Shown piece after piece: positions 20 through 48,978 of a DNA stretch of 63,211 bases. The DNA lies in NCBI GenBank assembly GCA_025399215.1, contig MU621173.1:1-63211 (forward strand), read 5' to 3'. The stretch comes from Globomyces pollinis-pini. Its lineage: Eukaryota; Chytridiomycota; Chytridiomycetes; Rhizophydiales; Globomycetaceae. The position numbers and the translations under genes are program-made. Below the pieces are notes generated by a model. The model was not told the origin of the DNA, made no database searches, and saw nothing but the letters and a program-made list of their open reading frames with translations. Within the stretch, counting starts at the first letter, position 1. The number at the start of each line of letters is the position of its first letter.

Positions 20-573
20 CTAGAGCTTGGGCCTTTCAACTGCAAATTTACTGTGACTACCAGTTGCAATCAATTTGCCATTGGCAAATATTTCAGATGT
101 ATTAAAGGACATAGTCTTGCCTATTTTGTTGCATTTTGTCACCACTCTATTCTTTTTAGAATCTAATCATTTACCTAACATTAGTCTAATTCACAAAATA
201 CCGAACTACATCCCCCAATCTAGCTGTTGATAAATAGGAAACTGTCAAATCCGTGCTCATAGCCGGTTCCAAGTATTGAGCTTTCACGGAATTTGCAAAA
301 AATGCTTGGATCGTTATGATTAGATTCCTTACCACAAACATCAATCAATGTTGCTATGACCCCTCCATGCAACGTTTTATAGCCATTCAAATGAATTTCC
401 TCCACTGGCATCTATAATCATGAGCGCAACTCCAATACCTCGATGATGGCTATCCCTGCTGTTGAATCGCAACTGATCACTTTCAGCTTTTGAAGAATTT
501 GTCTGTGAAAGCCTGAAGCTACTAAGAAATCCCAGGCCTGGTTCAATTCAGTGAGTGTGATCTTATCAGGCAT
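20..573 (-). CDS. ACOT13/THEM-like hotdog acyl-CoA thioesterase
   Basis: Hydrolyses acyl-CoA esters in the ACOT13/PaaI branch of the hotdog fold; the substrate is not readable from sequence. Start ATG (MPDKITLTEL) is at 571-573. A 27-nt intron leads to the exon containing NGYKTLHGGVIATLIDVC, the family's HGG helix signature. A 50-nt intron leads to the exon with STDLTVSYLSTARLGDVVR, the strand pair typical of ACOT13. The last gap (147-201) consists of two abutting GT...AG units. The final exon has NGKLIATGSHSKFAVERPKL and then TAG. All joins keep frame and family order, so the gene looks complete at ordinary ACOT13 length. It is divergent from the SBDS-domain gene across about 200 bp. Family assignment is firm. 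Confidence 0.85.
147..201 (-). other. Two-unit head-to-tail intron array (thioesterase gene)
   Basis: Read on the minus strand, the gap between VVR and VVTKCNKIG is a 27-nt GT...AG unit (175-201) followed directly by a 28-nt GT...AG unit (147-174). Removing both keeps the frame; no coding residue lies between them. Confidence 0.7.
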
Positions 574-772
574 AGTTACTCTATGGAAAAAAAGTAAACT
601 AAACGGTACCTTGGAATGTGATCAAGGCATTGATATGTTTATTTTCCATAATGCATTAAATGCTTTGAATTAAGTATAGTTGGTGATTGTTCATTATAAA
701 TCCTCTCACCCTGGCAACTAAAACCCAAACCCAAACGCGATTTTTCTTTTCCCTTATATTCTACAACAGAAC

Positions 773-1339
773 ATGGGAAAATCAGATAAATCCGAACGAT
801 GCGTTTATACTACTGCAGCAGACACTGTTAAACAAGGTAATGCAACCAGCCTATTGATATTGGCTAGAATTCTTCATGTATGTTGAACCTGGTGAAGTAA
901 GTGCATAGCAATTCATTGATTGTAGGTTGAAAAATGGAGAAAAGGTTGCTCAATAGTGCATTTTTAATATTAGGTAAATTGCTTGAAGATCAGGTTTAGT
1001 TAATCTACGAAATGAATAGGTATTTCGTCGCGATATCTCATATTTTTAAGGTAAAACTCAATGATACTCATCAATTAGACAAGACTATTCCAATTGTTGA
1101 AGTTGTTCAAGCATTTCAGATTTTTGAAGTGGACAACAAAAGTTCACAAGGAATTGCAATGCGACCATCCAAAGCTGATTTAGCGTATTTTCATGCGAAT
1201 TCATATCCATAGGAATGCATTTGGAACTGAAGATGAACACTTGATTGTGGAAAAGATCTTGATGGAAGGAAAGATTGTGCACAGTAAGGAAGGATTTTCA
1301 AGTGTGGGGTCCAAAGGATTCATGTCGAAATCCTTTTAA
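773..1339 (+). CDS. SBDS-domain protein, Rtc3/YHR087W-like
   Basis: Small protein of the single-domain SBDS family (yeast Rtc3), linked by family knowledge to RNA metabolism and stress; its exact role is unknown. Start ATG at 773 (MGKSDKSERCVYTTAADTVK). Later exons give EFFMYVEPGEVEKWRK, then DKTIPIVEVVQAFQIFEVD with SQGIAMRPSKADLA, then NAFGTEDEHLIVEKILMEG, matching the conserved K-TIPL-DVVQSF and AFGT..ED.VI..IL blocks. A 28-nt intron precedes NAFGTED. The gap between WRK and DKTIP (945-1078) is a run of up to five abutting intron-like units. It ends at TAA 1337-1339. The family match is clear; exon joins are by eye. Confidence 0.85.
945..1078 (+). other. Head-to-tail intron array, up to five units (Rtc3-like gene)
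   Basis: Between the exons ending WRK and starting DKTIP are abutting GT...AG units at 945-973, 974-993, 994-1019, 1020-1050 and 1051-1078. Joining 944 to 1079 gives AAA GAC AAG (K-D-K) in frame, as the family requires. The 20-nt second unit is shorter than any other intron here, so units 2 and 3 may be one. Confidence 0.65.
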
Positions 1340-1770
1340 ATAAAAATTGATTTCCATCTGCATTATACATTACCAATCAATTAATTAATCCCGATATTGA
1401 ATCATTGTGATTGGATCATGCAAAGCATGGTATACTTCACTGTTCCACACACATCATTCTGATTGATGGCAACTAGAAATAATTCTCTACCTTAATAGAT
1501 TGGTTCAATAACACCAGGAAAATTGTAACAGCATCGAATGAAATGAAACCATGCTCATAAAGAGATTAACCATTCATTTCGGAGTTTCAGGCCGTAAATA
1601 GAGATGAGATTAACAAATTACTGTCTAAGTGTATCAAAAATCAATTTCGAACAGGGTAACATTAGATGCTAAACCATAAGCTCAGTATCATCAAGAGTAT
1701 CGCTCAATATTTTGTAAAGAGATTTTTTTTAGGAAATTTGGTAAACAGTAGATAGAAAGAGTTGTTAGAC
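1340..1770. other. Intergenic, no feature recognised
   Basis: AT-rich spacer between the Rtc3-like stop and the TAD3 start on the same strand. I see no coding exon, RNA gene or repeat in it. It presumably holds the TAD3 promoter. Confidence 0.5.
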
Positions 1771-2754: not shown

Positions 2755-2945
2755 TAAATGTTTACAAAATAGATCTTACAGGTAGAGAATTATGTGATTT
2801 ATCTAACAATCAGTCGTATCTCGATTCTATTCCTACATCTAAAGCATACCATTGAACATCAAGATATTGTGATAGGAAACGAATGACAATATAATGTTTA
2901 AAACAGATAAATTTTATTCACTCGATTGGCAAATGCCATTTAATT

Positions 2946-4242: not shown

Positions 4243-5920
4243 ATGAAAGGAAAGTGTCCAGACCCATCCTGTGATTCCACCACAAGAATAGTCGACCAAA
4301 GTCTAGGTCATATCATTTGTGAAGGATGTGGAATGGTGATTGAAGAAGATTCTTTGGTTAATGAAATCAGTTTTGGAGAGAATAAAGCTGGAGGGGCAGT
4401 TGCTCATGGATTTACAATTCAACATGGACAAGCAAGACATACTTCAAATGCTTCCTTTGGATTTGGTTCGAATGCGATGCGAGCTAGAGTTGATTCAAGG
4501 GAAATTACTAGAAAGAAAGGACATGCTGCCATTGAGGAAGCTTCCAATACTCAAGGTAAAACACCATAAAATGAAAAGCTAATCTCAGGTTTGCCAAATT
4601 GCTGAATATTTAACCTCATAGGTTTGAATTGCATTATTGTTTGATGTTACAGGTAATAGATTAACCTGTTTGTCTAATTCAAAGGTATTTTGAAGTAAAA
4701 TATATAACCTTAGGTATCAAAATGGATCAAGTGACTGTAAATATGGCTTGCAATATTCTAGATTTAGCATTATCACATAATTACACCAAAGGAAGGAATT
4801 ATAATTGTGTAATTGGTGGTTGTTGTTACATTGCCTGCAGATTAAACAAAACGTCTCATATGCTGATGGATTTTTCGGAAGCCTTTGCAGTAAATCAACC
4901 ACTATTCAAATTAATTGAATACAGATTAATGTATTTAGTATTGGAGCAGTATTTGTCAAACTAAGGGATTTGTTTTTTAATGGAAAAGATGCAGATCAAA
5001 TGTTGCCATTAGTTGATCCTGCATTATATATGGCTCGTTTCGCTGAAAAACTTGAATTTGGAGAAATGAAGGAACAAGTTATCATGTCCGCTTTGAAATT
5101 GGCACAGGGAATGGAACGCAGTTCTTTGGTAACTGGAAGAAAACCTGCTGGAATCTGTGCTGCTAGTAAACATTTGCTTTTTGTTTAATAGTGTCTCTAG
5201 GTTTGTTTGTTGCGGCTCGTATGTATGGATTTAAAAGAACTATCAGAGAAATTGTATTAATTGTCAAAGTATGTGGGGGAACAGTGAGAAGAAGGTAAGT
5301 CAAGAAAGCAATGTTGACTGTAGATTACGAGAATTGGCTGACACTGAGTTGGGTGATATGACAAAAGATACCTTTGAAGGAATGGCAACCAATCCAGCAG
5401 ATCCTCCATCCTACAACAAAAGGTCAAGACGAAGGGCAAGTATTGCACCTCCGGTACAGTTAGATGCAGAGGATACACCACTGCTAAATGAAGTGGTGGA
5501 ACTAATTAAAGCATCTCATGAATATGATGAAGAAAATATTGACAATTTGGATGATTTAGACGATGATCCTGATGTTATAGATGCGATTCAAGTGACTGAA
5601 GAGGAAAAAGATTTCAAAAATGAGCTGTGGACGATGATTAATTCTGATTGGATGGAAGCTCAAACTCATAAAGACCCATCGGAGTATCGACCTCCCAAAA
5701 AGGTATTTGAATGAGATGCATTGATATATACTTAGAAAACCAAACGTGGTAATCAATACGATTCGCCTTTCAAGTCTGAGAACCCAGCCGATGCCGTTCG
5801 AAAATTAGTTGAATCTAAACCTCAATTATCGAAACGATTTAACCATGACTTGGTCAAAGATTGGGTAACTTATATCTTTGAATTTTATAGTTGTAGTTTC
5901 CGGAAATTGAAGACGAATAA
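4243..5920 (+). CDS. BRF1: TFIIIB subunit BRF1 (TFIIB-related factor)
   Basis: RNA polymerase III initiation factor that bridges TFIIIC, TBP and Pol III. Start ATG 4243 (MKGKCPDPSCDSTT). The N-terminal zinc ribbon has CPDPSC and CEGC. Two cyclin-fold repeats follow: QVTVNMACNILDLALSHNYT with CCYIACRLNKTSHMLMDFSEA, then NVFSIGAVFVKLRDL through FAEKLEFGE to RKPAGICAA and VAARMYGFKRTIREIV. After DPPSYN comes the Brf1 homology II region that binds TBP, seen as EEEKDFKNELWTMINSDWME in an acidic context. The last exon ends FPEIEDE-stop at 5918-5920. The gap 4556-4713 inside the first repeat is five abutting intron-like units; skipping all of them gives the correct spacing against human BRF1. Confidence 0.93.
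4556..4713 (+). other. Five-unit head-to-tail intron array (BRF1)
   Basis: Exact abutting GT...AG units at 4556-4588, 4589-4621, 4622-4652, 4653-4684 and 4685-4713 (33, 33, 31, 32 and 29 nt). Most carry a TAAY-type branch-like motif 5-10 nt before AG. Joining 4555 to 4714 gives TQG-IKMDQVTV in frame and correct alignment length. Retaining any single unit introduces a stop or a frameshift. Confidence 0.75.
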
Positions 5921-6611: not shown

Positions 6612-7777
6612 CTACTTGACATTGGCTGGTATTGGGAACTTTTTTATCTTTGAGATATCTAATGGTTGATTTCGCTGATAAAACTCATGCAACACCTGAC
6701 TTAGTTTCTCAGGAACATCTTCTTGGATATAATGGCCTGACTCTGGAATCACAACCATTTGAAACTTGCCTGGATATTACATATTCATACGATACCTAAT
6801 GGTGGTAATGAGTACTTTGAATTTATTACCTTTCTAGTAAATAATAATTGTGTACTATACCTTGCATTTGACCAATGGTTAAAGGTTTATCAAGTCTGTC
6901 AGTGCCTACGAAAGTTAATCACAGTATTTCACCAGCTAAGACCAAGAGTTTTGCGCATGGCATTGACAAAAATTTGTCAGAAAGTCCTAGAAACCATTCT
7001 GAAGATCAATAAACATATCTGGATACCTTGCCAATATGGTGAAGATTTCGATAAATCTGTTTTCCAAACATACTTATTATCTGCTAGTTTTAACTGGGTT
7101 GGAATAGATATTTCTGCAGATTTTCGATTCATTATTTGATGGTTTCGAATCCTAGTTTAAGATTGTGCAATTCATATTACGACCAATCTATTGCATTTTC
7201 AATCGAAGGAAAACTGTTTGGTCGACTAGCTAATATCTTATTCATATGCGCTAATGATTCAATTGCAGAACCTAGCAGCATGAACAAATTAGTCAATGAT
7301 TTACCTTCCACAACATCCAACACTACACAACCAATAACGTTTTTGACTAATCGCTTGTGCATTAGATGAACCACAACGGCTCCTCCCATGCTATTAGTCT
7401 TAATTCAAGTCTATAAGTACCTGTGGCCAATTAATATAACCTGCTGGTTGGCAGTTTGATATTGCTGAATTATATCGCGTAAATCATTTGCTAGAGTTTC
7501 CAGTGATAAATCCAGTACTGAATTGTTGGAATCCAAATCTGATATATTCATCCCATGCCCTCTTTATGATGAACAAAAGTGTATCTTACCTGCAATCGAA
7601 AGAAAGAGTTGTGCAAGGAAGTAAATCCAGCATAGCCGATTGAAGTAGTGAGAAAGATGCAGCAGAGAGTCCAGCACCATGATGAAAGACAAACAACGGC
7701 CCAGAGCCAGATGAACGAAGGATTATATGAGGGGGAACTTCTTTGTCTGTCATTGGAATTAAAAAGTCAAAAAACAT
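6612..7777 (-). CDS. PPME1: Protein phosphatase methylesterase 1 (PP2A demethylation)
   Basis: Serine alpha/beta hydrolase that removes the C-terminal methyl ester of PP2A catalytic subunit. The block FVFHHGAGLSAASF is the oxyanion region. The nucleophile motif GHSMGGA is split by a 30-nt intron (GH|SMGG). CVVLDVVEGKSL and FPSIENAIDWS match PPME1. Later exons give KTDLSKSSPYW, GWFLGLSDKFLSMPCAKLL, AGTDRLDKPLTIGQMQGKFQ and ESGHYIQEDVPEKL with the catalytic histidine. Stop TAG is at 6612-6614. The start is uncertain: 7777 opens MFFDFLIPMTDKEVP, but family members have some residues before this, and a 5' exon may lie in 7778-8000. It is divergent from the glucosidase I gene. Confidence 0.88.
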
Positions 7778-8002: not shown

Positions 8003-10896
8003 ATGATATTCATCACAATACTTTTGTATTTGGTTCATGCTGATACAACCTACAACAATTCAATGTTTTGGGGGTCTTATAGACCAAATTTATACTTTGG
8101 AACAAGAACTAGATCGAATCCAACATTGGTATCTATCATTCATCTGATTTTAGATGACTGGATTAGCTTGGTTTGGAACAACCTCACTGAATGATAAACC
8201 ATGGGAAAGTACCGAGTTTCTGATTTGCTTACTGTAGATATTCGTCACACTTGTGAACAAGGTGATCATTTGGAAGGTTACGCTTGGAACAAACATAATG
8301 GCAGGTATCTAATCACAAAGTTGATAAGAAACTTAGAGATTTTGGAACTCAATTGATTAAAGATTCAAAGAATAATGTGCAAATTAAAACCGAATTTTTG
8401 AAAGTCAATCATGGAAGTTATGGTACATAACTTGAAACTACTGATGGTAGGTGGTGATTGGGTTGTTCGTATTACAGGTGAACCATTGGAAGCAGCTCTA
8501 CGTAATTTTTGATCGTAATCATTGATTTCTAGCAACGGATATCTCGTTACTTTTCTATGTTGGGTTAGATGGACAAGGCAGTTTAAAACAGGAAGCAACT
8601 GAGTCAAATGATTTTGCACATTTAACAGGATCATCTGAGTTTTTGGGTGACTTCTCATTCTTTGCCAGAGGTAACAGCCTATTCTAATCATTAGACCAAC
8701 AAAATTCGCGATTAGATGACTCAGGACCATATACACTTGATGTGGATTTGGAAGGCATCAATGTTCTACCATATCAAGTCCCTGGCTCATCCATTTGGAA
8801 AGTGAAGGAATTAATACAAGGAGCAATGGTTAACACTGCGCAAAAACGCATCAACGAAGCAGGAGGAAACGAAGCTCTCTCAAATGTACATGGGATTTTG
8901 TTTGAGTAATATTAGATACACCCTTCACTACTATTTCATTTGGAAAAAGCCCAAGTTACTGATCCAAACTTATACATTTTTCAGCACACAATGTCTGGTC
9001 CATTCACAGTAACACCATTATGTAATTTTAACCGATATATAGGTAAATCTATATATTCGATAACAGACAGATTGAGTATGTATTTTTATCTGGTGCCAAT
9101 CAGAAAGTAAAAGATGGTACTTTTAAACTAGCTAATTATAGCATCCAAATACTTTTCTAAAGCATTATCTACAAAGTTAAAGAATGCGGAACAGTTGTTT
9201 GATGAAAAATTCGAGAAAGTATTTCAGCTTTCTGATAAATATTCGAAAAAAGAAAATGATTTCGCTAAAATGTTACATTTTTCAAATATCAGTTAATTAT
9301 TTAGGTTGCTTGGCAATATGTTAGGTGGCCTTGGATATTTTCATGGAACATCTATTGTAGACAATAGCCGCAAAGGATACGACGAGAGCGATTTAACTTT
9401 AGAACCCATTGACGATGCCGAAAATGAATATTTTGATTTGAGCGATTCGGATGCACCAATTGGACCTCCTCCTCCTAATCCACAACCTGATGGACCACAT
9501 ACACTATTTACTGGCGTTCCTTCAAGACCTTTTTTCCCTAGGGGTTTTCTGTGGTAAGATGAACATAAATTCATCTATGAAGGGACTCTGGATTTGATCA
9601 TCATCTTATTAGTGCATTTGATAATGAAATAAGGTATTCGTTTAGTCACTAACATAAAAATAGTTTGGATATAATGGCAAGCTGGGCTGCATTAATAGAC
9701 GAAGATGGATGGGTGGCTCGAGAACAGATTCTGGGTGAAGAGGCTCGTAGCAAGGTGATTGGATTCATTGGTAATACATTTAGGTCCCGGCTGAATTTCA
9801 AATTCAATATCCAGACTATGCAAATCCTCCAACACTTATTGGTGGTTTAAAAAGGTATATGGACAGGCGAGAAAAGGCATATGCAATAATTAGTATACTT
9901 AATACACATACTAACCATTAGAACCGGATGGAACGTTACCAACGCATGACCAACAATCATTAGAATTCCTTGTGAAGATTTATCCGAAATTTAAGAAGCA
10001 ATATGAGTGGTTTCATGAAACTCAACTGGGTCAAATCCATGACTGGAATTATGGCAAAGATATTTCATACGGTTTCAAATGGCGTGGAAGAAAGAATAGC
10101 CATATTCTTACTAGTGGTGTGTTAAATTGTCTGCTCATTCTATAATATAGGCTTGGATGATTATCCAAGATCCCCGGTTTCGCATCCTGGTGACTTGCAT
10201 GTGGATCTTCATTCATGGATGGTATATTTTGCACAAACACTTCAAACTGTGGCAGCCGAACTAGGATATGATGACGATGCTAAACAATTTGAGGTTCAAG
10301 GAAGTAAGATTAAAGAAGATTTGTTTAGTAAAACTACTTGTCCTTTAACGAAATAGAATTACACTGGGACGATAACTCAAATACCTTCGCTGATGTGACT
10401 TTCGACGCAAATGGTATAATCTCAATACTGACTGGTAGAGGAGGCACAGCATGTTGTTCATAAGGGCTACATCAGTATTTTCCCACTTCTCTTAGGAATT
10501 GTTCCCCCAGAATCACCAAAACTTGAACATTTACTAAAAATGATTCGAAACCCAGGCCATTTGTGGTCGCCATATGGAATCTGTTCATTATCAAAATCAG
10601 ATGAGTACTTTGGAAAAGATGAAAATTACTGGCGAGGTCCAATTTGGGTGAACATCAATTATCTTCTGTTGCAATCGTTACATCGGAATTACATACATCA
10701 TGGACCATATCAAACTCTTGCCTTGGGATTGTATACTGAATTGAGACGCAATATTATCAAAAACGTATACCAAAATTATGAACGCTCAGGTTATGTATGG
10801 GAGCAATATTCATGCACCGATGGGACTGGTTCACGTAGTCATCCATTTACTGGGTGGACGTCACTAGTTTTACTGGCTATGGCGGAAAAGTACTAA
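8003..10896 (+). CDS. ER mannosyl-oligosaccharide glucosidase I (GH63)
   Basis: Removes the outermost alpha-1,2-glucose from Glc3Man9GlcNAc2 on new N-glycoproteins in the ER. ATG 8003 gives a hydrophobic N-terminus [16 protein letters not shown], a probable signal peptide or anchor. It is followed by [20 protein letters not shown] and, after an intron, MTGLAWFG and [17 protein letters not shown], all GH63 N-domain hallmarks. The catalytic domain includes GFLW...[63 protein letters not shown] and the C-terminal [20 protein letters not shown] with [19 protein letters not shown] is at 10894-10896. Many short introns; a few internal joins were not checked in full. Confidence 0.9.
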
Positions 10897-11019: not shown

Positions 11020-12079
11020 TTAAGATTCCGACTCGTTCCGTCTATTCAATGAACCAGCAGTTTGATTTAGCAATCCAGTGGGCTTATTCAACAATCCAGT
11101 GGGCTTATTCAGTAATCCAGTGGGTTTATTCAATAATCCAGTTGGCTTATTTAGTAATCCAGCAGGTTTGTTCAACAATCCAGTTGGTCTGGTAAGTAGT
11201 CCGGTAGGTTTATTCAAAAGTCCAGTTGATTTGGTTGATGTTACGCCAGGTGTAGATTCGGATTGTGACGAACGGTCTTCGGCCTTCTTAGCCAACGTGC
11301 TCAGCTTGGTAAGTTTCAATTTCTTTGCTGGTTGTATTGTGTTTAAGGATAATTTAATGGGTGCATTTTCATCTCTTTTTAGCTCAGTGAATGTTTGTTC
11401 TTCCATTTTTGTTTGTTCTTTCGCCAATTGAACTAAATCTTCCAAATTCTTTCTTTCCTTTTCCTCTTCAGTCTGCTCAATAAGCGATCGTTTCACTTTC
11501 GCTCTTTGTTTTTCTAAAGTTGAATGGGATCTATCAATAAATGTGATATAGAAATCCTTTTCTCCTAAAACGTATTCAGTTGCAACAAATTACCTTCCTC
11601 CACTTTAGCATATCCTTCTGTCCCGAGATATTTTATATATGCAGTTAGCGAAAGCCATTTTGTAGAATTCAAGTGTACATGCTCTGGATCCAAAATAAAC
11701 TCTTGGTAAATGGTGTTGGCAGGATATCTGCCATTTCTGAATCGAGAAGAAAACAACTTCATGAATTCAGAATGGAATTCATCACTATGTTTCTGAATAA
11801 ACTTTCCAGTATCCTGAGCAAACAACATCATTTGCTTTAAATGTGATTCTGACGCACAATGGCATTTAAAACCACTAAATCAATCAAAACTTGCCTATGA
11901 TTCACTTACTGCTCATCCCGACATTGCTTTTCACACACTATCCTGATAAGTACTTTCTAAGACTTACTCTGGCAATAGAACTTCAATTTCTGTAATCCTT
12001 TCAGCTTCCATTTCTTTCGTATCGCTAAGAATCAAACTATCGATTGCATACACTTATGATCTAGCGGATTTTTACCCAT
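11020..12079 (-). CDS. KIN17 DNA/RNA-binding protein with heptad tail
   Basis: Nuclear zinc-finger and winged-helix protein linked to replication, repair and pre-mRNA processing. The ATG at 12077-12079 reads MGKNPLDHK. Next is AIRKKWKLKGLQKLKFYCQM with a C2H2 finger (CEKQCRDEHGFKCH) whose codons are split by two introns, then SESHLKQMMLFAQDTGKFI, the Kin17 winged helix (FHSEFMKLFSSRFRNGRYPA, NTIYQEFILDPEHVHLNSTK, WLSLTAYIKYLGTEGYAKVE) and YITFIDRS. The tail after the coiled part is eight TGLLNKP-like heptads, ending at TAA 11020-11022. The C-terminal KOW/SH3-like domains of animal KIN17 are absent. The exact exon-1 join is uncertain. Confidence 0.85.
11065..11228 (-). repeat. 21-bp coding minisatellite in the KIN17 tail
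   Basis: Eight tandem 21-bp units, each encoding (T/A)GLL(N/T)(K/R)P, fill the 3' end of the KIN17 gene. Units differ at synonymous sites, so the heptad has been kept at protein level. Apparent long plus-strand reading frames here are shadows of this repeat. Confidence 0.8.
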
Positions 12080-12193: not shown

Positions 12194-13206
12194 ATGAATG
12201 TGACGCTACGGCAAGTAAGTTCATTGACAATAGTTGATACTCTATTGTTTTAGAAACCATCGTTCCAGAAAAAAGTGGACCAAATTGTTGCAACAAGGAG
12301 ACTTTCGTTAAACCATTTGAATAAATTACCAAAGTCTGATATTTATTTGGAGTACATTGATTCCGATTAATTTTAGGTTGGTGATTGTATTACTCATCTG
12401 ACCTTTAGGTACTTTCTGAATTGGATTAATGAATGCTTAGTGTAATATACGAAAATGAAAGGGGAACAATCCTATTCAATTCGTCTAATTTCTCCAAGAA
12501 AGCATTACTACCAACCGATCATCCCTCATTTTCCAATCCACGAGGTTTAGTCTCAACGTATTGATAAAAAGGTTCATATGTGGTCGATCGAAAGGATTTC
12601 CAGTGTCCACCGAACTGGGAATGGGTCTCTGATTGGATAATCGATATGAATGGCCCAGTAGATGATGATGGTAACTTTTAAATTTTTTTTATGACTTGTG
12701 CATGTACAGGATGGTCGTATAATTTATCTTTCAATCAACCAGAAACAAGCTGGAAAGATCGATTTGATCTCAATAATTTTATATCTAGTGTACGAAGAAG
12801 GTAATTCATCGAACCAGTCATTCATAGTGGAAGAAAATGGACTCGAATGAGACGATATACGTTAGATAACATGCCTGAATCATCTAGTCCGACAAAGGGA
12901 AATGAAACAATAATAGAGATCATCCAGCAGAAGAAAATCGATCGAGAAATCATTCAAGATCTTGAAAAATATATTAAAACCAACAATTTGAAGGATCCTA
13001 AATTATTTAAAGACATTTTGACAGAAATGCGCTATGAATGTGGGAAATTGAAAGTATGTTTACTACTTGCCAGCAAAATTCAGCATTCAAATGATTTTAT
13101 CAAAGCGGGATTGGCGTCTTTAAAATATGGATCAGATAAACTGGAGTTTTTGAAAGCGTTGAAAGTGAATTCAAAAAATTATCGCGACCTGCTTTCTATC
13201 GACTAA
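12194..13206 (+). CDS. Dysferlin-domain protein (Pex23/Pex30-like or tectonin-like)
   Basis: Contains the paired DysFN/DysFC fold found in fungal peroxins Pex23/30-32 and in TECPR proteins. After a short start exon (MNVTLRQ at 12194) comes KPSFQKKVDQIVATRRLSLN, then DVIYENERGTILFNSSNFSK and ALLPTDHPSFSN (the DysFN pattern), FQCPPNWEWVSDWIIDMNGP with VDDDGWSYN, and the DysFC part SSVRRRKWTRMRRYT. A Lys/Glu-rich helical C-terminus follows, to a stop at 13204-13206. No membrane helix is visible, unlike Pex30-type ER proteins. Role in peroxisome or ER contact is inference from the domain only. The intron at 12352-12440 is a three-unit array. Confidence 0.75.
12352..12440 (+). other. Three-unit head-to-tail intron array (dysferlin-domain gene)
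   Basis: Abutting GT...AG units at 12352-12376, 12377-12408 and 12409-12440 (25, 32 and 32 nt). Joining 12351 to 12441 makes the split codon GA|T and yields YLDVIYENERG, the expected DysFN start. No partial removal keeps this frame. Confidence 0.75.
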
Positions 13207-20432: not shown

Positions 20433-23096
20433 TTAACCTGAACAACTTAAACAAGCATCCCGATTATCAATAGAACATACCATATCTGCCATATTATTGG
20501 CTTCTTCTTCTCCTTCCTTCTTCAAAGCTGTCTTATCAACTGTGAATTTAATAGCATCAACTGCTGGTCGCGTACGTAAATAATACATACCAGTCTTTAA
20601 TCCTTTCTTCCATCCATAAAAGTGCATGGATGTTAATTTACCATAGTTGGGATCAGCAAGATGAATATTTAATGATTGAGATTGATCTACAATAAATTAT
20701 TTGAAAAAAAAAAAACATACCAATGAAAGCTCCTCGATCGGCTGCCATATCAATAATAACCTTTTGAGATATTTCCCAAACTGTTTTATAGATAGCTTTA
20801 ATATCATCAGGAATACTCTTGATGTTTTGTACAGATCCATTTTCAGCAATGATTCGATTCTTCATCGAATCATTCCATAACCCAAGTTCAGTCAAATCTT
20901 TCAATAAATGTGGATTAACAATTTGGAATTCACCAGCAAGGACACGACGAGTATAGATATTGGATGTGTAAGGTTCAAAACATTCATTATTTCCAAGGAT
21001 TTGTGAAGTAGATGCAGTAGGCATTGGAGCAACCAATAGAGAATTTCTAACCCCATGTTTAGCAATCTTGGCACGCAAATCTGGCCAGTCCCAACGATCA
21101 GAAACTTCCACACCCCACATATCTGGTTGAAGAATCCCTTTCGACACTGGTGACCCTTCATAGGATTCATACGCCCCAAGCTCCTTGGCAATAGCATTCG
21201 AGGCTTCCAAAGCAGCAAAATAGATGGCTTCAAAGATATCCTTGTTCAATTGTTTAGCTCTTTCCGAATCAAATGGCATTCGAAGTTTAATGAACGCATC
21301 AGCCAACCCTTGCACACCCAATCCAACAGGTCGATGTTTCATATTCGAATTTCTAGCTTCCGGAACTGGATAGTAATTCACATCAATAATCTTATTCAAG
21401 TTCTTTGTAGCCACATGAACAACTTGTCGCAACTTTTCAAAATCAAAAAATACTTTATCATCATCGCCTTTGACAACAAAGGTAGGTAATGCGATGGAAG
21501 CCAGGTTACAAACAGCAACCTCATCAGGAGACGAATATTGAACAATTTCGGTACACAAGTTGGAACATTTGATAGTACCAAGATTTTGATGATTTGATTT
21601 ACGATTACATGCATCTTTGTAAAGCATGTATGGAGTACCAGTTTCGGTTTGGGATTCCAAAATCGCATACCATAGTTTTTGTGCCTTGACCACTTTACGA
21701 GCATGACCTGATTGTTCGTATTGATGATACAATTCCTCAAACTTTTCACCCCAAACATCGGAAAGTCCAGGACATTCTGCTGGACAAAATAGGCTCCAAT
21801 CTCCGTTTTCTTCAACTCGTTTCATAAACAAATCAGGAATCTAAACTCGTCAATAAACACATCAGTATACCCATAAAGCATAAAACAAATCACGAGCTCT
21901 ATTTTCTTCTTTACCAGTATTCTTTTTCAAATCCAAAAACTGGGATTAAAAACATAAAAAAACGTACGCCAAAAATGTCAGCATGCCATGGTTCCAAGTA
22001 CATTGCAAACGCACCTGGACGTTTATTTCCACCTTGATCAACGTAACGAGCAGTGTTGTTGAAAACACGCAACATTGGAACGATTCCGTTGGACAAACCA
22101 TTGGTTCCAGCAATATATGACCCGAGTGCACGAATTTTATGGATATTTAAACCAATTCCACCAGCGGTTTTAGAAATAAGAGCACATCTAAAGTTAACCA
22201 AAGAGGAACCGATACCTGGTCAAAGTTTCATAGATCCCTTCAATAGAATCATCAGTCATGGTAAGCAAGAAACAAGAAGACAATTGAGGTCGTGGAGTCC
22301 CAGCATTAAACAGAGTAGGAGATGCATGAGTGAAATATTTTTCCGACAACAAATGATAAGTTTCAATGGCAGCATCCACATCATCCCCATGAATCCCAAC
22401 AGCAACACGCATCAACATCTGTTGAGGTCGTTCAGCAATGCGACCCTTGAGTTTCAACAAATAAGATCGTTCCAGAGTCTTGAACCCGAAAAAATTGTAA
22501 TTGAAATCACGATCATAGATGATGGCGGAATTCAATTGATCAGCATGACGACGAACACATTCAAGAGTATAATCCGAAATCATTGGAGAATGTTTTCCTA
22601 TCCATTAGCATGTTTGACATTCGGACAACAAGTTTTAGAAAAAGAATGTAAATGGTGGTGTGGGATATGATAAACTTACCAGTTTTAGGGTTGATATAAG
22701 CATATAATTCTTCAACAACTTTTGAGAATTGTTTATGAGTTTCTTTATGTAAATTGGAGATTGCAATTCGCGCAGCCAAGATTGCATAATCAGGATGTTT
22801 GGTAGTTAAATAAGCAGTAGTTTCAGCAGCCAAGTTATCCAATTCCACAGTGGTTACCCCTTGATAAACCCCTTGAACAACCTACAGATCAATCTATCAA
22901 AAAACCATACCTAAAGGTGAATCAATCTAGGAAACTTACCTTTTGAGCAATCAAAGCAGGATCAACGAAATTCATATCTAAACCATAACATAATTTATTT
23001 ATTCTTGAAGTGATTTTATCAAAGGCAACCTTCTCTTTACGACCATCTTTACAAGTTTAGAATGAATTGATTCATACCTCGTTTATACACATACAT
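20433..23096 (-). CDS. RNR1: Ribonucleoside-diphosphate reductase large subunit
   Basis: Class Ia alpha subunit that reduces NDPs to dNDPs in the cytosol. [20 protein letters not shown] (ATP-cone) starts at 23094-23096. Catalytic landmarks are present: [20 protein letters not shown] (first redox cysteine), [48 protein letters not shown] with LASIALP (the NxCxE site, N-L-C-T-E, and the second cysteine), [20 protein letters not shown] and [18 protein letters not shown]. The C-terminus DACLSCSG keeps the CxxC re-reduction pair. Stop is at 20433-20435. The gap at 22882-22939 is a two-unit intron array. Upstream at about 23341 is a CACGCGC motif, similar to MBF/MCB sites of S-phase genes, next to ATTGG; that link is inference. 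Confidence 0.96.
22882..22939 (-). other. Two-unit head-to-tail intron array (RNR1)
   Basis: Minus-strand units 22911-22939 and 22882-22910, each 29 nt, GT...AG and abutting. Removing both joins LIAQK to [13 protein letters not shown], the conserved order. Confidence 0.75.
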
Positions 23097-29210: not shown

Positions 29211-31240
29211 TCAAGATGATGATTCAATAGATTGCAGTAAAATATCCAATTCAGATTGTAACTCCATCAAATGTCCACGAATAATTTCAGCATCTTCAAA
29301 TTTACGTTTCCCAATCATATCATTCAATAAATCATTCATTTGTTTGATACTATCTTGTAATACTAATACTCGATCATCCAATATAGGTATCACTTGTTCA
29401 ACTTTGGTCGTTTGGATCGTAGGCATTTTTTGCATGGTAAACATATGTTGTTGAAGATAATTGATGATACTGATATAGACATTATCTTGAATACGTTGTC
29501 CGCTATGGTTAAACACAATCATTACTAGCTGGATGTGGTTGGTAATGATTTAATAGATTTAGATATTTTATCAATTTGTGAAAATGTATCTAAACATTCT
29601 TTACGTAATTTTAAAGCCAATTGAAATGTTTGGCTTTTTGGATCAATATCATTCATCCCATTCAATTCAATCAATAATGAATTAAAAGTATTTAAACTGG
29701 TTGTAATGTTGGTCACGTATCGTTTATAACTCTATCATTAGATTTAGCTAAATTTACTTGATAAAGTGTCACGATCGTTGGTATAGATTGTTGTTCAATA
29801 CTCTTTTTACGTCTATCATTAGCAACCAACAAAATGATTTACAAACTTAACAAAAATACACATTTTTTACAACTACGAATCCCATGATCAATGGTATCAG
29901 CAATGGGTACCGATCTGGAACATTCAAAACAAATTAATTGTCCACATAATCGACAATGATGTTTACGTACCAATAATCCAAATACATTTTCACATAAATG
30001 ACAGGTATTACTGGTATGATCTTCCACCCATGGTGCAACAGGTTCAATCGCTAAATCATCAACCAAAAATATAAAAATTACGATTTTTTAAAAATGAAGT
30101 TCGTCTTGTTAAAAGTGGTGATGATTGAAATTCTTTGACTGATTTTTCCAACTGTTTTGTTGTTGTTTAATATAAAATAGATTGATTACCTTTTCCAATC
30201 GTTTTTCTATTTTATTGACTTCCAATGAGGTTGTTGTCACAATCTGTTTCCGTATTTTCAAAAAGGAGGATGTTTTATTTCTAGAAACACCTAATCATTA
30301 ACTTATTTCTATCCAATCTAATAATAAATCCATAAATGATATCAATCAATGTCACAAGTGTTTCAAACTTACCATGATTATTTTTATATCCATCACGATT
30401 GAAATAACAATTTTGACATACTCTTGACCAACATCCATTTACAGGATCATGTTTAGCGTTAAAATTCAGTTTCATTTGAAATCTTGAATGTAAATTACAA
30501 GTTTCTTTTCCACATCTAAAAAAATATTCATCTCAAATAAGATTTTACTTTGAACAATTTTGTCTTCCATTGACAATTCCTAATGATTTGTTACAATTTT
30601 GAATATAACAGTGTGATGAATCTGTAATGAGATGTGATTTTTTCATTAATCCATTGACAGCTGATAATCTTGATTTAGGTGATAACGATAGAAATTCATC
30701 AAAATCAGCATCCGACATTCCTAACGATTATTTTACAAATCCAATCTACCTAAACATGAATTCATTAAAGAAAACCTAAAATTGAATGGATTAGCTATTT
30801 AAAATACCAGAAGGTATTAAATTTTCATCATTCACATTTAATTCGAATACATCTTGTCTAGTTAACACATCTGATACTTGATCAGCAACCTAAATAAAAG
30901 CAATTCATTAAAGAATAATTTCTTACTTTATCTAATTTAACATTTTCAAATAATCGTCTTGTTTTATCAGTTGTTATTTTAAAAAAGTTCTTTAGAATAT
31001 CCGAAGGATCATCCGTTTGATGATCATGATCCTATTAATAAAATGATTAATTGGTACTTGGATACCTAATACAGAAATGAAATTTGATTTTTGGATACCT
31101 AATACAAGAATGAAATTTTGAAATTCAATACCAAATGTTCATTTAATTTTTCTAGAGTTCGAAATGATATCGCTATGGTTAAATGATTAGCTATTACAAC
31201 AGATTGGACAAGAGAATTTAGAAGTGGATTGAGATGACAT
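29211..31240 (-). CDS. Vac1/Pep7/rabenosyn-5-like C2H2 and FYVE endosomal protein
   Basis: Rab5-linked endosomal tether with the Vac1 domain order. Start ATG 31238-31240: MSSQSTSKFSCPICSISFRT then LEKLNEHLDHDH, a C2H2 finger. Next DPSDILKNFFKITTDKTRRL, then GMSDADFDEFLSLSP. A first, divergent FYVE region follows (CGKETCNLHS...GCWSRVCQNCY), then the true FYVE finger with WVEDHTSNTCHLCENVFG and RKHHCRLCGQLICFECSRS (the PI3P-binding RKHHCR motif). The C-terminal coiled coil (FEDAEIIRGHLMELQSELDI) ends at TGA 29211-29213 and fits the Rab-binding helix. Two introns (30721-30807 and 31032-31131) are three-unit arrays; only their complete removal unites the C2H2 part with the FYVE part. Confidence 0.85.
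30721..30807 (-). other. Three-unit head-to-tail intron array (Vac1-like gene, downstream)
   Basis: Minus-strand GT...AG units 30776-30807, 30750-30775 and 30721-30749 (32, 26 and 29 nt) abut exactly. Joining the flanks makes the split glycine codon G|GA and reads NLIPSGMSDADFDEF. Confidence 0.75.
31032..31131 (-). other. Three-unit intron array with two near-identical units (Vac1-like gene)
   Basis: Minus-strand units 31099-31131 (33 nt), 31066-31098 (33 nt) and 31032-31065 (34 nt). The first two are equal in length and nearly the same: both begin GTAT, share an AAATTTCATT-type core and end TGTATTAG. The third also begins GTATCCAA. Removing all three joins NEHL to DHDHQTDD. Confidence 0.85.
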
Positions 31241-32030: not shown

Positions 32031-32066
32031 AATGAAAGAATTATCAAACAAGTGACCAAGTTGAAA

Positions 32067-32739: not shown

Positions 32740-35249
32740 TTACATTTGTTGGACAGCCTTGTAGATTTCATCCATGAAATGTTGCAGTGATTGTGGGCTT
32801 GTAGATTGTGAGGCCATAAAATAGACCACGTTACCCAAGGGGCGAACAAAAATGTGATGGTTTGATTTTAATTTAGCCACAAAGGTTTGGGCAACAGTTG
32901 ATAGATACCCTTCAAAGATTAAAAACAGGGATCCACATACCTGATTGTTGACTTTTCAATTCAATCACCAGCACGGTTCCGATCGAATTCACACGTTCTA
33001 TTTGATCAAGATTTGACAAGTCTATCATCATCTATAAAGTATTAAACCATATCCACATACCTTTTCATTCCACACAGTCATTTTAGGACTCGTCTGAGCC
33101 ATTTTTTGATATTCTTTAATGGATTGAACAGCTACTGCACAACCAATAGGATGAGCAGTATAACTATGACCATGAAGTAATGCTTGTAACTTGGTATCAC
33201 CATCAAAGGCATTGAATATTTTAGAAGTGGCCAACGTAGCCGATAATGGTATTAAACCACCAGTAAGACGTTTAGCATAACAAGCAATATCTGGATAATA
33301 TTTCGGATCGTTGAATAATGGAGAAATGGAAGGTAGGTTGGTCCCACATCTGTACATACCCACAAAGACTTCATCAAAAATAACTGGAAGGGGTGGTGAT
33401 GTGGAATCCCATAATTGAGGATTTCGAACAATATCAATCAATTCTTTGTGAAACAATGGATCAATGAATAACATCCCACCAGCACCCATGATGATTGGTT
33501 CTATAATCAACATACCAAACCGATCCATCAAATCGGATGGATTTTCCAATCTACTATGATATTTTAACGTTTTGATGATGTAATCGCGATATAATTGTAC
33601 AAATTCTGGTCGATCGTTGTAAAAAATGTCTTCCATTGTTTTGAATGTTCGTTTGGATTCTGGTATAGAAGATTCAAATTCAGTTGGAATTTGTATATGA
33701 TACATTTTGTTTTTCATGACATATGTTGGCGGCTTGAACCACATTCCCTTTCCTTGATACCTATATCGTTAAACCTGTGTCAATAATTACCTATACGATT
33801 AGAGATGATCGATTTATTACCATAAGACGCGACTGTTGTAGACATTAGGGTCTGATAAATCCATGGCACCAATCGTATCCCCATGATAGGAACCTTCAAT
33901 CCCAATAGCTTTCCAATGAATCTTTTTACCAGTTGGGTTAATCAAATCCATATCGGAATCCTGTAGAGTATTTGTTAATGCCATCTTGACAGCAACTTCA
34001 ATTGCCGTACTACCATTATCAGAATAAAATACTCGATTAGCCCATCCTTTACCAGCACCATCCAATAACAATTTAGACAATTGATCAGCTGGTTCATGAA
34101 TACATTCAGGTGCAATGACATGCCCATACCTACCAGCAGCATAAGCAGCAGTTTTAGCCAAAGTAGGATTCCCATGACCTAAACCTTGAGTCCACCAACT
34201 AGCACAAGCATCAAAATAATCTACCGAATTCATTCCATCAGTAGTTGATTCTACTACCGTCAAATGATCTTTAAAAGCAGAATCAATCACCATTGGTTCT
34301 TTAATAATCCGATGTTGAGTAAATGGCCACCAAATTCTTTTCATCCCATCTACCTTCATTTCTTTAAATCGTTCCATTCGATATGTATGAGAATTCAATA
34401 AATCTTGAATCATTGATGTATCATTATCCAATTCTTCAAAATAAATTTTCATTTGTTTTACATCTACATTAGAATTTAAATGTCGAGTTGGAGGTAATGG
34501 TACTAAATGTACTTTAACATCTTGATCAATATATTTTTGAATCACTTTTTGATTGGACCATTTTGGATTATCAAACATTAAAATCATTGGAATATCATAA
34601 CCTATTAAAAACATCAATTCATCATTTTGGTAATAAACCTAAAAAATTAAAACAATGAATGAGTAAAAACCTTTCATTTTCAATGATTCATATGAACTGA
34701 GTGTTGTTGAAATTCCACCAAGGTTAGAATCACCTACAAGAATTGATGGAAATCTAAAAATTCGATACACATCTGATTGTAGATTTCCAGACATCACAGG
34801 ACTATTCACACCTAAAATAAATGAAATCCAATTCACTATTCATACCTATACCATTAAATACATGCGTCAAAACCTCCAGCAGTTTCAATAAATGTAATTG
34901 AAAATGAATCATTAGGTATTAATTCATTTAATCTCGTATTTAATTGATGAATCAACATATCATCTGATACAATAGTATTTCCAACAGCAATATGAGGACT
35001 ACAAGGATCTTTATAATTGAAAATTGATTCAACTTTAGCATTTGATACATTTGATTGAATAAATCTTGCATCTGAATCTATTGGATAACCAGTTTGTACA
35101 GGTTTAATATAAAATGAATTTAAATTCATTTGATTTGATTTCTTCATCAATACAGTACTTAGTATTGTTTTCCCAATATCAGTATTGGATCCAAATATCA
35201 ACAATTTCAATGATTTTTCAGTTATTTGTTTTATACTTTGATTTATCAT
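32740..35249 (-). CDS. Bifunctional dethiobiotin synthetase / DAPA aminotransferase (BioD-BioA fusion)
   Basis: Carries out two consecutive biotin steps: PLP-dependent conversion of KAPA to DAPA, then ATP-dependent closure to dethiobiotin. Fused enzymes of this order (BioD then BioA) are known in plants and Aspergillus. Residues from ATG 35249: KLLIFGSNTDIGKT (P-loop, a GxxTxxGKT variant), FYIKPVQTGYP, SITFIETAGGFDACV. The aminotransferase half has RIWWPFTQH, FDACASWWTQGLGHGNPTLA, YSDNGSTAIEVAVKMAL, GIEGSYHGDTIGAMDLS, VIFDEVFVGMYRCG and YAKRLTGGLIPLSATLATS with the PLP lysine (K-R-L-T-G-G). It ends YKAVQQM-stop at 32740-32742. The intron at 33761-33820 is a two-unit array. Likely mitochondrial, but no clear presequence is visible. 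Confidence 0.94.
33761..33820 (-). other. Two-unit head-to-tail intron array (BioD-BioA gene)
   Basis: Minus-strand units 33791-33820 and 33761-33790, both exactly 30 nt, GT...AG and abutting. Removing both completes a Trp codon and reads NSRVLWYQGKGMWFKPPT, as in other fused enzymes. Confidence 0.78.
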
Positions 35250-37428: not shown

Positions 37429-38991
37429 ATGAATTTATTACAACAATTCAAAGAAACCTTAAAGAAACGAGATACAAAATCATTAAAAAGAAATTTAAAA
37501 CTAAATTCAAATACTGTGGATTTTACTTCAAATGATTATTTAGGTTTTTTTAAATGCCAATCATTTTATATTAGGATTAGCAAGAAATACTGATTTAATT
37601 GCAAGAATACATTCTCTTTCAAATAATATGAAATTATTAGGTTCAACTGGTTCAAGATTATTAACTGGTAAACATTATTTTATAACCTATTTTAGGTCAT
37701 TCAATGCATGTCAATCAATTAGAAATTTATTTAGCTAAATTTCATAAAAGTCAAGATGGTATCATCTTTAATTCAGGTTTCGATGCAAATTATGGTTTAT
37801 TCTCTTGTATTGCAAATGTTAATTCATTTATATTGATTTAGTTAGGTAAATGATTGTTTCTTGGTTGATGAATTGATACATTCTTCTGTACATGAAGGAA
37901 TTAAAGGTTCAAGATGTAAATATTGGAAATCTTTTAAACATAATGATACAATCGATTTAAAAATTAAAATAGATCAATTTAGATTCATTTCAAATGGTCA
38001 TATTTTTATTGCAATCGAATCTATATATTCCATGGATGGTTGTCTATCAAAATTAAAAGAAATTACCGATTTGTTGGATACTTATACAGATGTACATCTC
38101 ATCATCGATGAGGTTTGTGAATCGATTTACTGAATGAAAAAGGCTCATTCAACTGGAATTTGTGGACCTAATGGATCAGGATTGGTTTGTGAATTGGAAT
38201 TACAAGATAAAGTCTTGGCAAGAGTTCATACATTTGGTAAAGCAATTGGTTGTCATGGAGGTAATATTTAACAACATTCAATGGTAGCTATTATATTGGG
38301 ATCAACTATTTTAAAAGAATATTTAATTAATTATGCTAAACCTTTGATTTTCTCTACATTTTTACCATTACATACTTTAATTAGTATCCGACTTTCATAT
38401 GAATATATGATTGATCATTATGAAGAGGTAAATTTTAGTGGTTGGTTGATGGGATAGTTGTATCCAATGTTGAAAAGTCGAATAGTACTGTTTAGAAAAT
38501 TATTACAACCTTATCGAGATATTCCTCTTTTGGATTCCAATAGTCCTATCCAAGGTAATATTCATTCAACCTGTTTCCAAAATATTTTGATTCATAAAAC
38601 AAGTCATGTATGTGATCAAGTACCAATTCATATCATTTATGAATAATATATTTGGAATGATGACTAACAGTTGATTAGGCATCATCATACCAGGTAAACA
38701 ACACCCCGCATTAAATCCAATCAGGTATACAAAAACCAACATCTAATCCTTCAGGTAATGAAACAAATCTTTTTAATTCAAGGGAATAAGAATGTATGTG
38801 AAGCAGCTGAACAATTACAACATGATGGACTGGATGTTCGACCTATTCGATCACCTACTGTTCCCAAAGGTCGAGAACGATTACGTATCTGTCTTCATCT
38901 TCATAATACTGATGATGATATTCGTAAACTTGTTTATTTCATTTCTCAATTATCTATTTTCAAATCTAATGACATTTATTCCAAATTGTAA
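37429..38991 (+). CDS. 8-amino-7-oxononanoate (KAPA) synthase, BioF-like
   Basis: PLP enzyme of the alpha-oxoamine synthase family that condenses pimeloyl-CoA with alanine in the first committed biotin step. ATG 37429 (MNLLQQFKETLKKRDTKSLK). Features: VDFTSNDYLG, MKLLGSTGSRLLTG, DGIIFNSGFDANYGLFSCI, FLVDELIHSSVHEGI, VHLIIDEAHSTGICGPNGSG, and HTFGKAIGCHG, whose lysine corresponds to the PLP Schiff-base lysine. C-terminal block: NKNVCEAAEQLQHDGLDVRP and RERLRICLHLHNTDDDI. Stop is at 38989-38991. The gap at 38694-38782 is a three-unit intron array. Its relatives KBL and ALAS have different cores, and the neighbouring BioA and BioB genes support BioF. Confidence 0.9.
38694..38782 (+). other. Three-unit head-to-tail intron array (BioF)
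   Basis: Abutting GT...AG units 38694-38724, 38725-38754 and 38755-38782 (31, 30 and 28 nt). Joining 38693 to 38783 completes a glycine codon and reads IIPGNKNVCEAAEQL. Confidence 0.78.
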
Positions 38992-39630: not shown

Positions 39631-39684
39631 TAAAGAATGGGAAATTGAAATTCATTGTTTTGGGTATCAAGAAGCCACGAATTC

Positions 39685-40312: not shown

Positions 40313-43173
<2,861 letters not shown>

Positions 43174-47495: not shown

Positions 47496-47984
47496 GATGA
47501 TAGCTTTTCAGTCGTCTTCTACTGTGTAATGTTGTGAATCAAAAAAAAATACGCGAGTTGGAGTGGTAAGATGAGCTTTGATACCCATCATCGAGTAGAA
47601 TGGCTTGTTACTAACAAGGGACTACGAGTTGCTAATCAGTACAGTAGCCTATAATCTTATGAAACCCAATTTCGTATGATAAACCATTGACCGTTGATCA
47701 AGCCGATCTAATTACTGACAGGATGTTTTCCTTTATTGCCATACTGAGTCTATTGATTGGTTCCGATAGAAGGAATTACAGTAAGAAGTCTTAGAAATTA
47801 TAATTTTGAGCATTGTGAGGTTGCTTTGACCCTAGTTCAGATTGTCTCAAAACACGCTTTGTTGGCTAATCTGCTCCTTCTAATGCATGAATGGAACCAA
47901 ACTCTTGCTAAACTCTTCTTCATCCTCCCATAACTTCATTCAACACGTTCTTTGCTCTTTTCCACTGTTTTTTTTTCATCCAAA
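47496..47984. other. Divergent spacer upstream of VDAC
   Basis: About 490 bp between divergent starts. A T-rich tract lies just before the VDAC ATG. No exon or RNA gene seen. Confidence 0.4.
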
Positions 47985-48978
47985 ATGCACCCTCCATCCT
48001 ATTCTGATATCGGAAAACCTGCTAATGATCTCCTTGGCAAGGACTACCCAGTTGGTTCCGCAAAGCTTGAAGTAAACACAACTACTCCAAATGGAATCGT
48101 AATCTTGTTTGTTTAACTTTAGAAATTCACTGTGAACGGAAACAAGGATAACAAATCTGGTCATATTGCTTCTGATATCAAGGCCAAATTCACCGATAAA
48201 GCAAAAGGTTTGCTTTTATTGTAAACTAATCCCTCAGGTATTAAATTTACTTCTTCTGATTTCTAGGCCTTGTCTTTACCGAAACCTGGACTACCAACAA
48301 CGTCTTGGGTGCCCAATTAGAACTTACTGACTCCATTGCTCCTGGCCTCAAGTTGGACCTTAATGCTTCTCTGTTACCTGAAAAGGGTACCAAGAATGCC
48401 AAAGCTGGCTTAGAATATAAACAAGAACATGTCTTTACTCGTTCTTCTTTGGATCTTTTCAAAGGACCTACTCTTTATGGAGATGTCGTTATTGGGTACT
48501 GTTTTGTCTGTGTATTTATATTCTAGAAATGAAGGTTTCGTTCTTGGTGCTGATGTTGCATACGATGTCTCTGACGCTAAAGTCACTAAATATGGACTTG
48601 CTGCCGGTTATATTGCACCTTTATTCTCTGTATCCGTGTTAAGGTATTTAACATATACTAAAGTAAAGTGCAAACAAATTCAATGTCTTCACTGCTTCTT
48701 ATCACCAAAAAGTGACTTCTGAAGTTGAAGCTGGTGCCAAGGCCGTTTGGAACAAGGCTGTACCAGACTCTAACGTCGGAATTGAAGTCGGTACCAAGGT
48801 ATTGTTGGACAAGACCACTTTCTTCAAAGCTAAGGTTGACAACCAAGGAAGACTTGGATTGGGTTACACCAACACTTTGAGACCTGGTATTAAAATGGCT
48901 GTTGGTGGTCTCTTTGATACTACTCGTCTCAATGCTGATGTTCACAAGTTGGGTGTACAATTCACTTTTGAAGGTTAA
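47985..48978 (+). CDS. Mitochondrial outer-membrane porin (VDAC)
   Basis: Voltage-dependent anion channel, a 19-strand beta-barrel that lets metabolites cross the outer membrane. ATG 47985: MHPPSYSDIGKPANDLLGKD and YPVGSAKLEVNT, the family start (DIGK.A.DLL.KDY). Strands follow in short exons: TVNGNKDNKSGHIASDIKAK, GLVFTETWTTNNVLGAQLEL, AGLEYKQEHVFTRSSLDLFK, GFVLGADVAYDVSDAKVTKY, EVEAGAKAVWNKAVPDSNVG, KVDNQGRLGLGYTNTLRPGI and KLGVQFTFEG at the end, which keeps the C-terminal beta-signal pattern. Stop at 48976-48978. The intron at 48208-48266 is a two-unit array. Codon use suggests high expression. Confidence 0.95.
48208..48266 (+). other. Two-unit head-to-tail intron array (VDAC)
   Basis: Units 48208-48237 and 48238-48266 (30 and 29 nt), abutting GT...AG. 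Removing both completes a glycine codon in KAKGLVFTETW. Confidence 0.78.

Follow-up and report, generated by a model that had tools for sequence, protein, structure and literature searches.

The window analyzed here is the whole of a 63,211-nt stretch of DNA that makes up one contig (MU621173.1) of the chytrid fungus Globomyces pollinis-pini (Rhizophydiales, Chytridiomycota), the genome of which comprises 18.5 Mb in 459 contigs. Thirteen genes in this window are interrupted, at 16 places, by runs of two to five short GT..AG units that abut as AG|GT with zero exon between them (the run in the BioF gene was delimited by hand). Such exonless arrays of minimal introns are present far above chance. 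A preliminary description, made from the letters of the window, had claimed that housekeeping genes hold arrays of complete minimal introns with no exon in between, and this claim was borne out by the exact tiling of longer predicted introns (13/55 versus 0.49 expected) and by the signals found at the joints. The arrays of the window are given below, where "no open retention" means that none of the units, singly or together, would form an open in-frame exon if left in, and "tiling" that a predicted intron divides exactly into GT..AG units.

147..201, minus strand: two units (27 and 28 nt) in a 4HBT thioesterase gene; gene model, with Pfam 4HBT on the spliced protein; no open retention.
945..1078, plus strand: five AG|GT units (29, 20, 26, 31 and 28 nt; alternatively 29, 46, 31 and 28 nt) in an Rtc3/SBDS_N gene.
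4556..4713, plus strand: five units (33, 33, 31, 32 and 29 nt) in the BRF1 gene; AG|GT chain and gene model.
6770..6860, minus strand: three units (31, 34 and 26 nt) in PPME1 (protein phosphatase methylesterase); absent from the preliminary description.
9009..9070, plus strand: two units (34 and 28 nt) in a glucosidase I (GH63) gene; gene model, GH63 domains; no open retention; absent from the preliminary description.
12352..12440, plus strand: three units (25, 32 and 32 nt) in a Pex24p/dysferlin-domain gene; gene model, Pex24p 1e-7; no open retention.
22882..22939, minus strand: two units (29 and 29 nt) in RNR1; junction LIAQK|VVQGVY ungapped against the ribonucleotide reductase (RNR) large subunit 3hnc.
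30721..30807, minus strand: three units (32, 26 and 29 nt) in a FYVE (Vac1-like) gene; gene model and tiling, FYVE domain; no open retention.
31032..31131, minus strand: three units (33, 33 and 34 nt) in the same FYVE (Vac1-like) gene; tiling; no open retention; units 1 and 2, and units 2 and 3, similar.
33761..33820, minus strand: two units (30 and 30 nt) in the BioD-BioA gene; VLW|YQGKG ungapped against 4a0g and all six relatives.
34602..34670, minus strand: two units (32 and 37 nt) in the BioD-BioA gene; LKMK|GYDIP ungapped against 4a0g and all six relatives.
34812..34873, minus strand: two units (28 and 34 nt) in the BioD-BioA gene (array 1); ETAGG|VNSP ungapped against 4a0g and five of six relatives.
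38694..38782, plus strand: three units (31, 30 and 28 nt) in BioF; AG|GT chain read from the sequence; the middle unit is possibly an open exon.
41598..41669, plus strand: two units (34 and 38 nt) in an SRPK kinase gene; tiling, Pkinase match over residues 78-223; no open retention.
48208..48266, plus strand: two units (30 and 29 nt) in a VDAC gene; tiling, one Porin_3 match over residues 3-277; no open retention.
55106..55224, minus strand: four units (27, 27, 30 and 35 nt) in a gene with only a sub-threshold Pfam match; tiling; no open retention; absent from the preliminary description.

Gene Model and Intron Population

Introns were called with a two-strand semi-Markov gene model, self-trained on 263 kb consisting of the window and 20 unselected stretches of 10 kb each; genes with less than 300 nt of coding sequence were left out of all counts. 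An earlier one-strand model had been dropped, having produced many long introns that were taken as the bridging of neighbouring genes. At convergence, the model contained 789 introns with a modal length of 28 nt; 755 were 22-39 nt long, and the other 34 were 49-198 nt long. The donor consensus is GTA (A at +3 in 85%) and the acceptor consensus TAG (T at -3 in 76%), and a peak of A sits 8 nt upstream of the intron 3' end. Single introns of at most 42 nt (n=688) have a mean length of 28.6 nt. Lengths divisible by three were observed to be under-represented among them (190/688), as if retention were selected to cause a frameshift. The gain in consensus of introns of at least 45 nt (n=31) is weak and mixed (GTAAG 16% versus 9%, CTAAC 16% versus 4%). 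In a small and unclean sample, TACTAAC branch points were seen in longer unbroken introns at three loci (L019 4598-4660, L009 7727-7791 and L011 841-915), two of which have a GTAAGT donor as well; these signals are stronger than those of the usual minimal intron. Rfam and tRNA scans of the window returned no match, nor did an Rfam U1 scan of the whole genome, the control of which likewise gave no signal anywhere.

Abundance of Exonless Arrays

The gene model placed 42 internal exons of zero length in the 263 kb, compared with 0-4 for every other length up to 40 nt. In three control genomes, in which every intron or array had been swapped for one real minimal intron and the intergenic parts for Markov text, the same model returned 0, 1 and 2 zero-length exons. 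When arrays with any unit longer than 42 nt were excluded, 25 arrays remained, with 37 of the original 42 joints; they are referred to here as the sample arrays. BioF is not among them, the model having merged its long intron into the array. Arrays with all units of at most 42 nt span 51-228 nt in total. Fifteen of the sample arrays lie in the window beside 161 single introns, and ten (seven doublets and three triplets) in the unselected 200 kb beside 527. The window is richer in arrays than the unselected stretches, as expected because the finding was picked from it. Extrapolation of the unselected sample to 18.5 Mb gives about 900 arrays, a figure with a wide error since it is based on ten.

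Longer introns tell the same story when zero-length exons are nearly suppressed in the model (two left) and introns are allowed up to a limit of 200 nt. Exact tiling into GT..AG units of 22-40 nt was found for 13 of the 55 predicted introns longer than 42 nt, with 0.49 expected from shuffles of interior dinucleotides, and no exact tiling for the remaining 42. Genome-wide, TAGGTA pairs numbered 373 at a spacing of unit length (25-38 nt) and 33 at gaps of 300-313 nt, compared with 255 and 188, respectively, for a backward-read control word. Both results agree with the preliminary description, in which internal AG|GT joints were expected to be more frequent than in shuffled introns. Raw AG|GT chains were also in excess over shuffles in the window, on the plus strand (triplets 12 versus 4.85, quadruplets 4 versus 0.2) as well as on the minus strand (triplets 17 versus 6.65, quadruplets 4 versus 0.3); the gene model was adopted because such chains overlap and include coding false positives. 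One chain, at 11124-11292, was rejected as an array since it falls in the coding repeat of a minus-strand gene. This gene (11020-12011) contains a GLLNKPT repeat, the 42-nt spacing of which mimics an AG|GT chain on the plus strand.

A second, joint-selected set started from 30 TAGGTA loci, of which 19 were modelled (the others overlapped these or the sample) and gave 16 arrays. It omits L030 (the region of L028), L023 and L036, for which no array was listed, the arrays of L027, which lie in short genes, and one L043 array that holds a 68-nt unit. Among the matches listed, C12:42111-42255 holds a row of five complete units, each 27-28 nt long and two with the same sequence, and C43:71218-71339 a row of four complete units. 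The five units that the preliminary description had given as the upper size are exceeded by two genes. A gene with a GDSL-lipase domain (L039) carries eight modelled units of 25-33 nt; retention of a single unit is never open in frame there, and two double retentions could be. MCM8 (L048) has six units, as counted after comparison with the MCM8 structure 7wi7, which we take to be human. A seventh, the first unit as called, was rejected: it codes for ILEIYNFE and fills a stretch that is present in 7wi7. As MCM8 warns, an open unit with a length divisible by three may in fact be coding.

Signals at the Internal Joints

Joints chosen by AG|GT tiling alone were used to examine the signals (n=22). 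T was found at -3 in 16 of them (background at AGGT 0.249; binomial p 3e-6) and A at +3 in 17 (background at AGGT 0.331; binomial p 3e-5), in keeping with the zero-nucleotide ratchet form that had been ascribed to the joints. A YTRAY motif near the AG, with 4-14 nt following its A, occurs in 11 of the 22 non-terminal units, compared with 4.4 in composition shuffles, and none of 500 shuffles reached this count. Over all non-terminal units the motif was found in 35/75 (14.5 in shuffles), and in single introns in 402/688; the set of 75 was selected by the model's own acceptor profile and is not independent evidence. As far as sequence can show it, the internal joints have their own signals for acceptor (YAG), donor (GTA/GTT) and branch point. 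By its GT..AG ends, branch-point motif and single-intron size, each unit qualifies as a predicted U2-type spliceosomal intron.

Removal of the Entire Run

If some units were short coding exons that by chance start with GT and end with AG, the arrays would be an artefact of gene prediction. This holds for the first called unit of MCM8, which fits 7wi7. It is possible for unit 2 of BioF (30 nt), the retention of which alone is open in frame, and for units 2 and 5 of Rtc3, which are open in frame together; each is the one such way in its array. Some open retention is also permitted in 6 of the 16 joint-selected arrays. In all 25 sample arrays as modelled, by contrast, no subset of units can be retained as an open in-frame exon, so that 35 of the 41 arrays of both sets are without any open retention. 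Furthermore, the spliced proteins align without a gap to relatives across seven arrays of the window, namely those of RNR1, PPME1, BioD-BioA (three arrays), Rtc3 and BRF1. The artefact is refuted as a general explanation and is, for the arrays as a class, highly improbable. In conserved genes, the sequences indicate that the protein is obtained only once the entire run is removed. The preliminary description had stated this for each case, which goes too far: BioF needed correction, and one retention is open in BioF as well as in Rtc3.

With the whole run spliced out, Rtc3 reads WRK|DKT, ungapped against the SDO1-like protein C21C3.19 (presumably of fission yeast), and the product has an SBDS_N match of 8.8e-20. 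The gene model recovered only 994-1050 of this array and took units 2 and 5 as exons; because of the ungapped alignment, the gene is best read with the entire run removed. The array reported earlier is present, in corrected form: it covers 945-1078 and has five units, one of 20 nt, or four units, one of 46 nt. The BRF1 junction SNTQ|GIKM corresponds without a gap to ANIQ|GIKM of P0122, the best match besides the contig's own protein, and differs from the yeast junction by two residues. The public BRF1 model P0121 (gene region 4556-5920 of the window) has 344 residues and begins at a methionine just past the five-unit array, and therefore lacks the N-terminal zinc ribbon. The public protein BC833DRAFT_589676 of G. 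pollinis-pini matches the BRF1 of the window with 100% identity over 76% of the query. In PPME1, the junction GQMQ|GKFQM is ungapped against PME-1 (3c5w); we take both 3c5w and 3hnc, used for RNR1, to be human proteins. Two models were cut before searching: that of PPME1, in which a 145-nt "intron" links the gene to an additional part that may be a second gene, and that of RNR1, fused to a Snf2-like gene.

The sixth relative aligned for BioD-BioA is P0186, from Globomyces sp. JEL0801; it shares 98% identity and is longer by four residues, FDAC, which stand precisely at array 1. These residues can be read from 12 nt at the start of the first unit of the array in the window, and array 1 is therefore probably present in JEL0801 as well, and mis-modelled there. 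For BioF, the preliminary description was corrected: the run was resolved into an unbroken 124-nt intron, a 15-nt exon and, after these, three AG|GT units. The spliced BioF protein has an Aminotran_1_2 match of 5.1e-38, and the middle unit of the array may be either an intron or an exon.

The arrays could also be maintained as regulatory devices, with incomplete splicing leading to nonsense-mediated decay and so tuning the expression of the carrier genes. The lack of any in-frame retention in the 25 sample arrays would suit such a role. However, the carrier genes are unrelated, and a frameshift or stop upon retention requires no regulatory function; we regard this explanation as quite unlikely.

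Similarity Between Units and Origin of the Arrays

Adjacent units were found to be similar at p<=0.01 in 5 of 37 pairs of the sample (0.37 expected) and in 4 of 38 pairs of the joint-selected set (0.38 expected), or 9/75 versus 0.75 when pooled. Similar or even identical neighbours indicate that tandem duplication of a unit happens in this minority, and the units of some arrays appear from their sequences to have arisen in this way. Comparison of 926 introns (length difference of at most 4 nt) gave 48 pairs that reached the cut-off, and the 25 of these that were listed consist of 2 within-array pairs and 23 scattered cross-locus pairs. No larger multi-locus intron family was noticed among these 25 of 48 pairs, which come from 926 introns and less than 2% of the genome, no clustering having been computed.

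New introns, introner-like or derived from reverse splicing, might instead have been inserted at the AG|GT boundary of an existing intron, a perfect proto-splice site, in place of a duplication of the resident unit. The 32 of 37 sample neighbour pairs that are unrelated accord with such insertion. On the other hand, certain neighbours are plainly copies of one another, and the listed cross-locus pairs are scattered with no larger group noticed among them. Insertion, with later divergence, is a conceivable source of the arrays, and we hold it to be less likely than not.

Two further observations on the genes of the window may be recorded. At 61525-62184 and 62793-63211 lie two genes in tandem that resemble each other and have their introns, of 25 and 26 nt, at matching places. 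The window also encodes a fungalysin, which shares 96% identity with a G. pollinis-pini protein from a different contig and 85% with a protein of Globomyces sp. JEL0801.

Proposed Mechanism

Each run is probably a series of complete minimal U2-type introns, mostly of 24-37 nt, that work individually and have zero exon between them, and we infer from the sequence that the units are excised one at a time. The spliceosome would recognise every unit through intron definition and excise it singly; removal of any unit would leave or recreate the 5' and 3' splice sites of its neighbours, so that any order would work. At a joint, the U1 footprint, which reaches from exon -3 to intron +6, overlaps with the contact at the 3' AG|G. 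Neighbouring units are therefore probably not committed simultaneously, and an array would need at least two rounds of splicing. As for origin, an AG|GT-bounded unit would be duplicated in tandem by slippage, template switching or unequal exchange. Such an event would yield two introns at once and leave the mRNA unharmed, and the copies would later diverge while their splice signals are kept.

An alternative to individual excision is a single outer splice that would take out each run as one long intron, its internal AG|GT joints being dead relics of duplication or insertion. Long introns that do not tile do occur in RNR1, BioF and SRPK. In the case of RNR1 and BioF, the features concerned are as follows.

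22598..22679, minus strand: unbroken 82-nt intron of RNR1; no internal tiling; ungapped alignment.
38555..38678, plus strand: unbroken 124-nt intron of BioF; sequence reading; no internal AG|GT joint.
38679..38693, plus strand: 15-nt exon of BioF coding for GIIIP, read manually from SPIQ-x-G, which we take to be a BioF motif.

In SRPK, the array of the preliminary description was corrected to two units, and a separate gap of 623 nt elsewhere in the gene, between kinase exons (40751-41373), does not tile; one AG|GT close to its 3' end would split off a 26-nt unit. The gap is A/C-rich, with repeated TTCAACATT-like words, and is very unlike the rest of the introns seen here.

These three long introns or gaps count against individual excision, for they imply that one outer splice could physically bridge 60-160 nt. 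Several other findings weigh against the proposed mechanism as a whole. Array units are slightly longer than single introns (mean 30.4 versus 28.6 nt, p 1e-5). GTT donors are in excess in the first units of the sample arrays (10/25 versus 74/688 of the single introns, p 2e-4), which the proposed mechanism does not predict; this excess failed to recur in the joint-selected set (3/16, p 0.40). The open retentions of BioF and Rtc3 belong here, as do the 32 of 37 dissimilar neighbours, by which duplication is demonstrated for a minority only. Nevertheless, signals and branch points are maintained at the joints although most neighbours are dissimilar, as expected if each unit is spliced and unlike relics. 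Moreover, 13/55 longer introns tile exactly, and old relics should no longer do so. A single outer splice is therefore an unlikely account of the arrays.

A wider proposition is that introns here form a satellite-like class of tandem repeat, which would expand inside genes without exons to as many as eight units, in hundreds of places and without burdening the mRNA, each unit being spliced separately and iteratively with zero exon in alternating rounds of the spliceosome. We see the case for this proposition as evenly balanced. With zero-length exons being routine, the iterative removal of minimal introns with overlapping splice sites becomes testable in one organism, and the arrays make intron multiplication testable in it as well. 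Gene-finding software is confused by the arrays, and the cases of BRF1 and of BioD-BioA in JEL0801 suggest that further gene models in fungi of this kind may be faulty.

Comparison with Known Systems

The minimal introns of ciliates and nucleomorphs are near the lower size limit and are handled by intron definition; abutting arrays are not known among them. In the literature searched, as represented by titles and the opening parts of abstracts, no description of exonless arrays of minimal introns was found.

What distinguishes the Globomyces arrays from complex introns described elsewhere? Stwintrons are nested pairs in which the external intron has its donor, acceptor or branch point split or closely adjoined by an internal one (PMC7138796, PMC5639578, PMC12403724). 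They share with the arrays the character of complex fungal intervening sequences that need, or in the arrays would need, more than one U2 splicing reaction, and an origin by small duplications has been proposed for part of them. The units of the Globomyces arrays, however, are contiguous rather than nested, and number up to eight. When introns of 44-80 nt were examined for both arrangements, abutment (offset 0) fitted 7 of 16, compared with 0.49 expected, whereas nesting at offsets of 4-10, or of 3-5 nt on the acceptor side, fitted 0-1 of the 16 each (0.17-2.19 expected). At offsets of 1-3, and of 1-2 nt on the acceptor side, the expectation is 0.0 given the fixed ends, and [D1,2] types are possible elsewhere in the genome.

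Introner elements are families of similar copies present at many loci (PMC9860276, PMC7789003). Mass gain of introns within one genome would be common to both; in Globomyces the likeness is between neighbours, with no multi-locus family seen in a small sample. Intron gain through the expansion of DNA repeats has been described for Cryptococcus (PMC2395259) and for the potato RdRp gene (PMC4974935). There, too, duplicated DNA makes additional near-identical introns in one gene, but these appear to be separate introns in a repetitive region, whereas in Globomyces the intron unit alone is repeated, without exons.

In the zero-nucleotide recursive splicing of Drosophila, ratchet points are juxtaposed AG|GT sites in long introns (PMC8605326, PMC5126111), and they have been reported to require a cryptic RS-exon (PMC8605326). 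The juxtaposition of acceptor and donor is common to both systems, and removal of one part would recreate a 5' splice site in the arrays too. The Globomyces arrays differ in that segments of 20-38 nt follow one another in series, outside long introns and with no room for an RS-exon. Overall, since stwintrons are nested and the ratchet points of Drosophila lie in long introns with a cryptic exon, the exonless arrays of G. pollinis-pini appear to be distinct from both.

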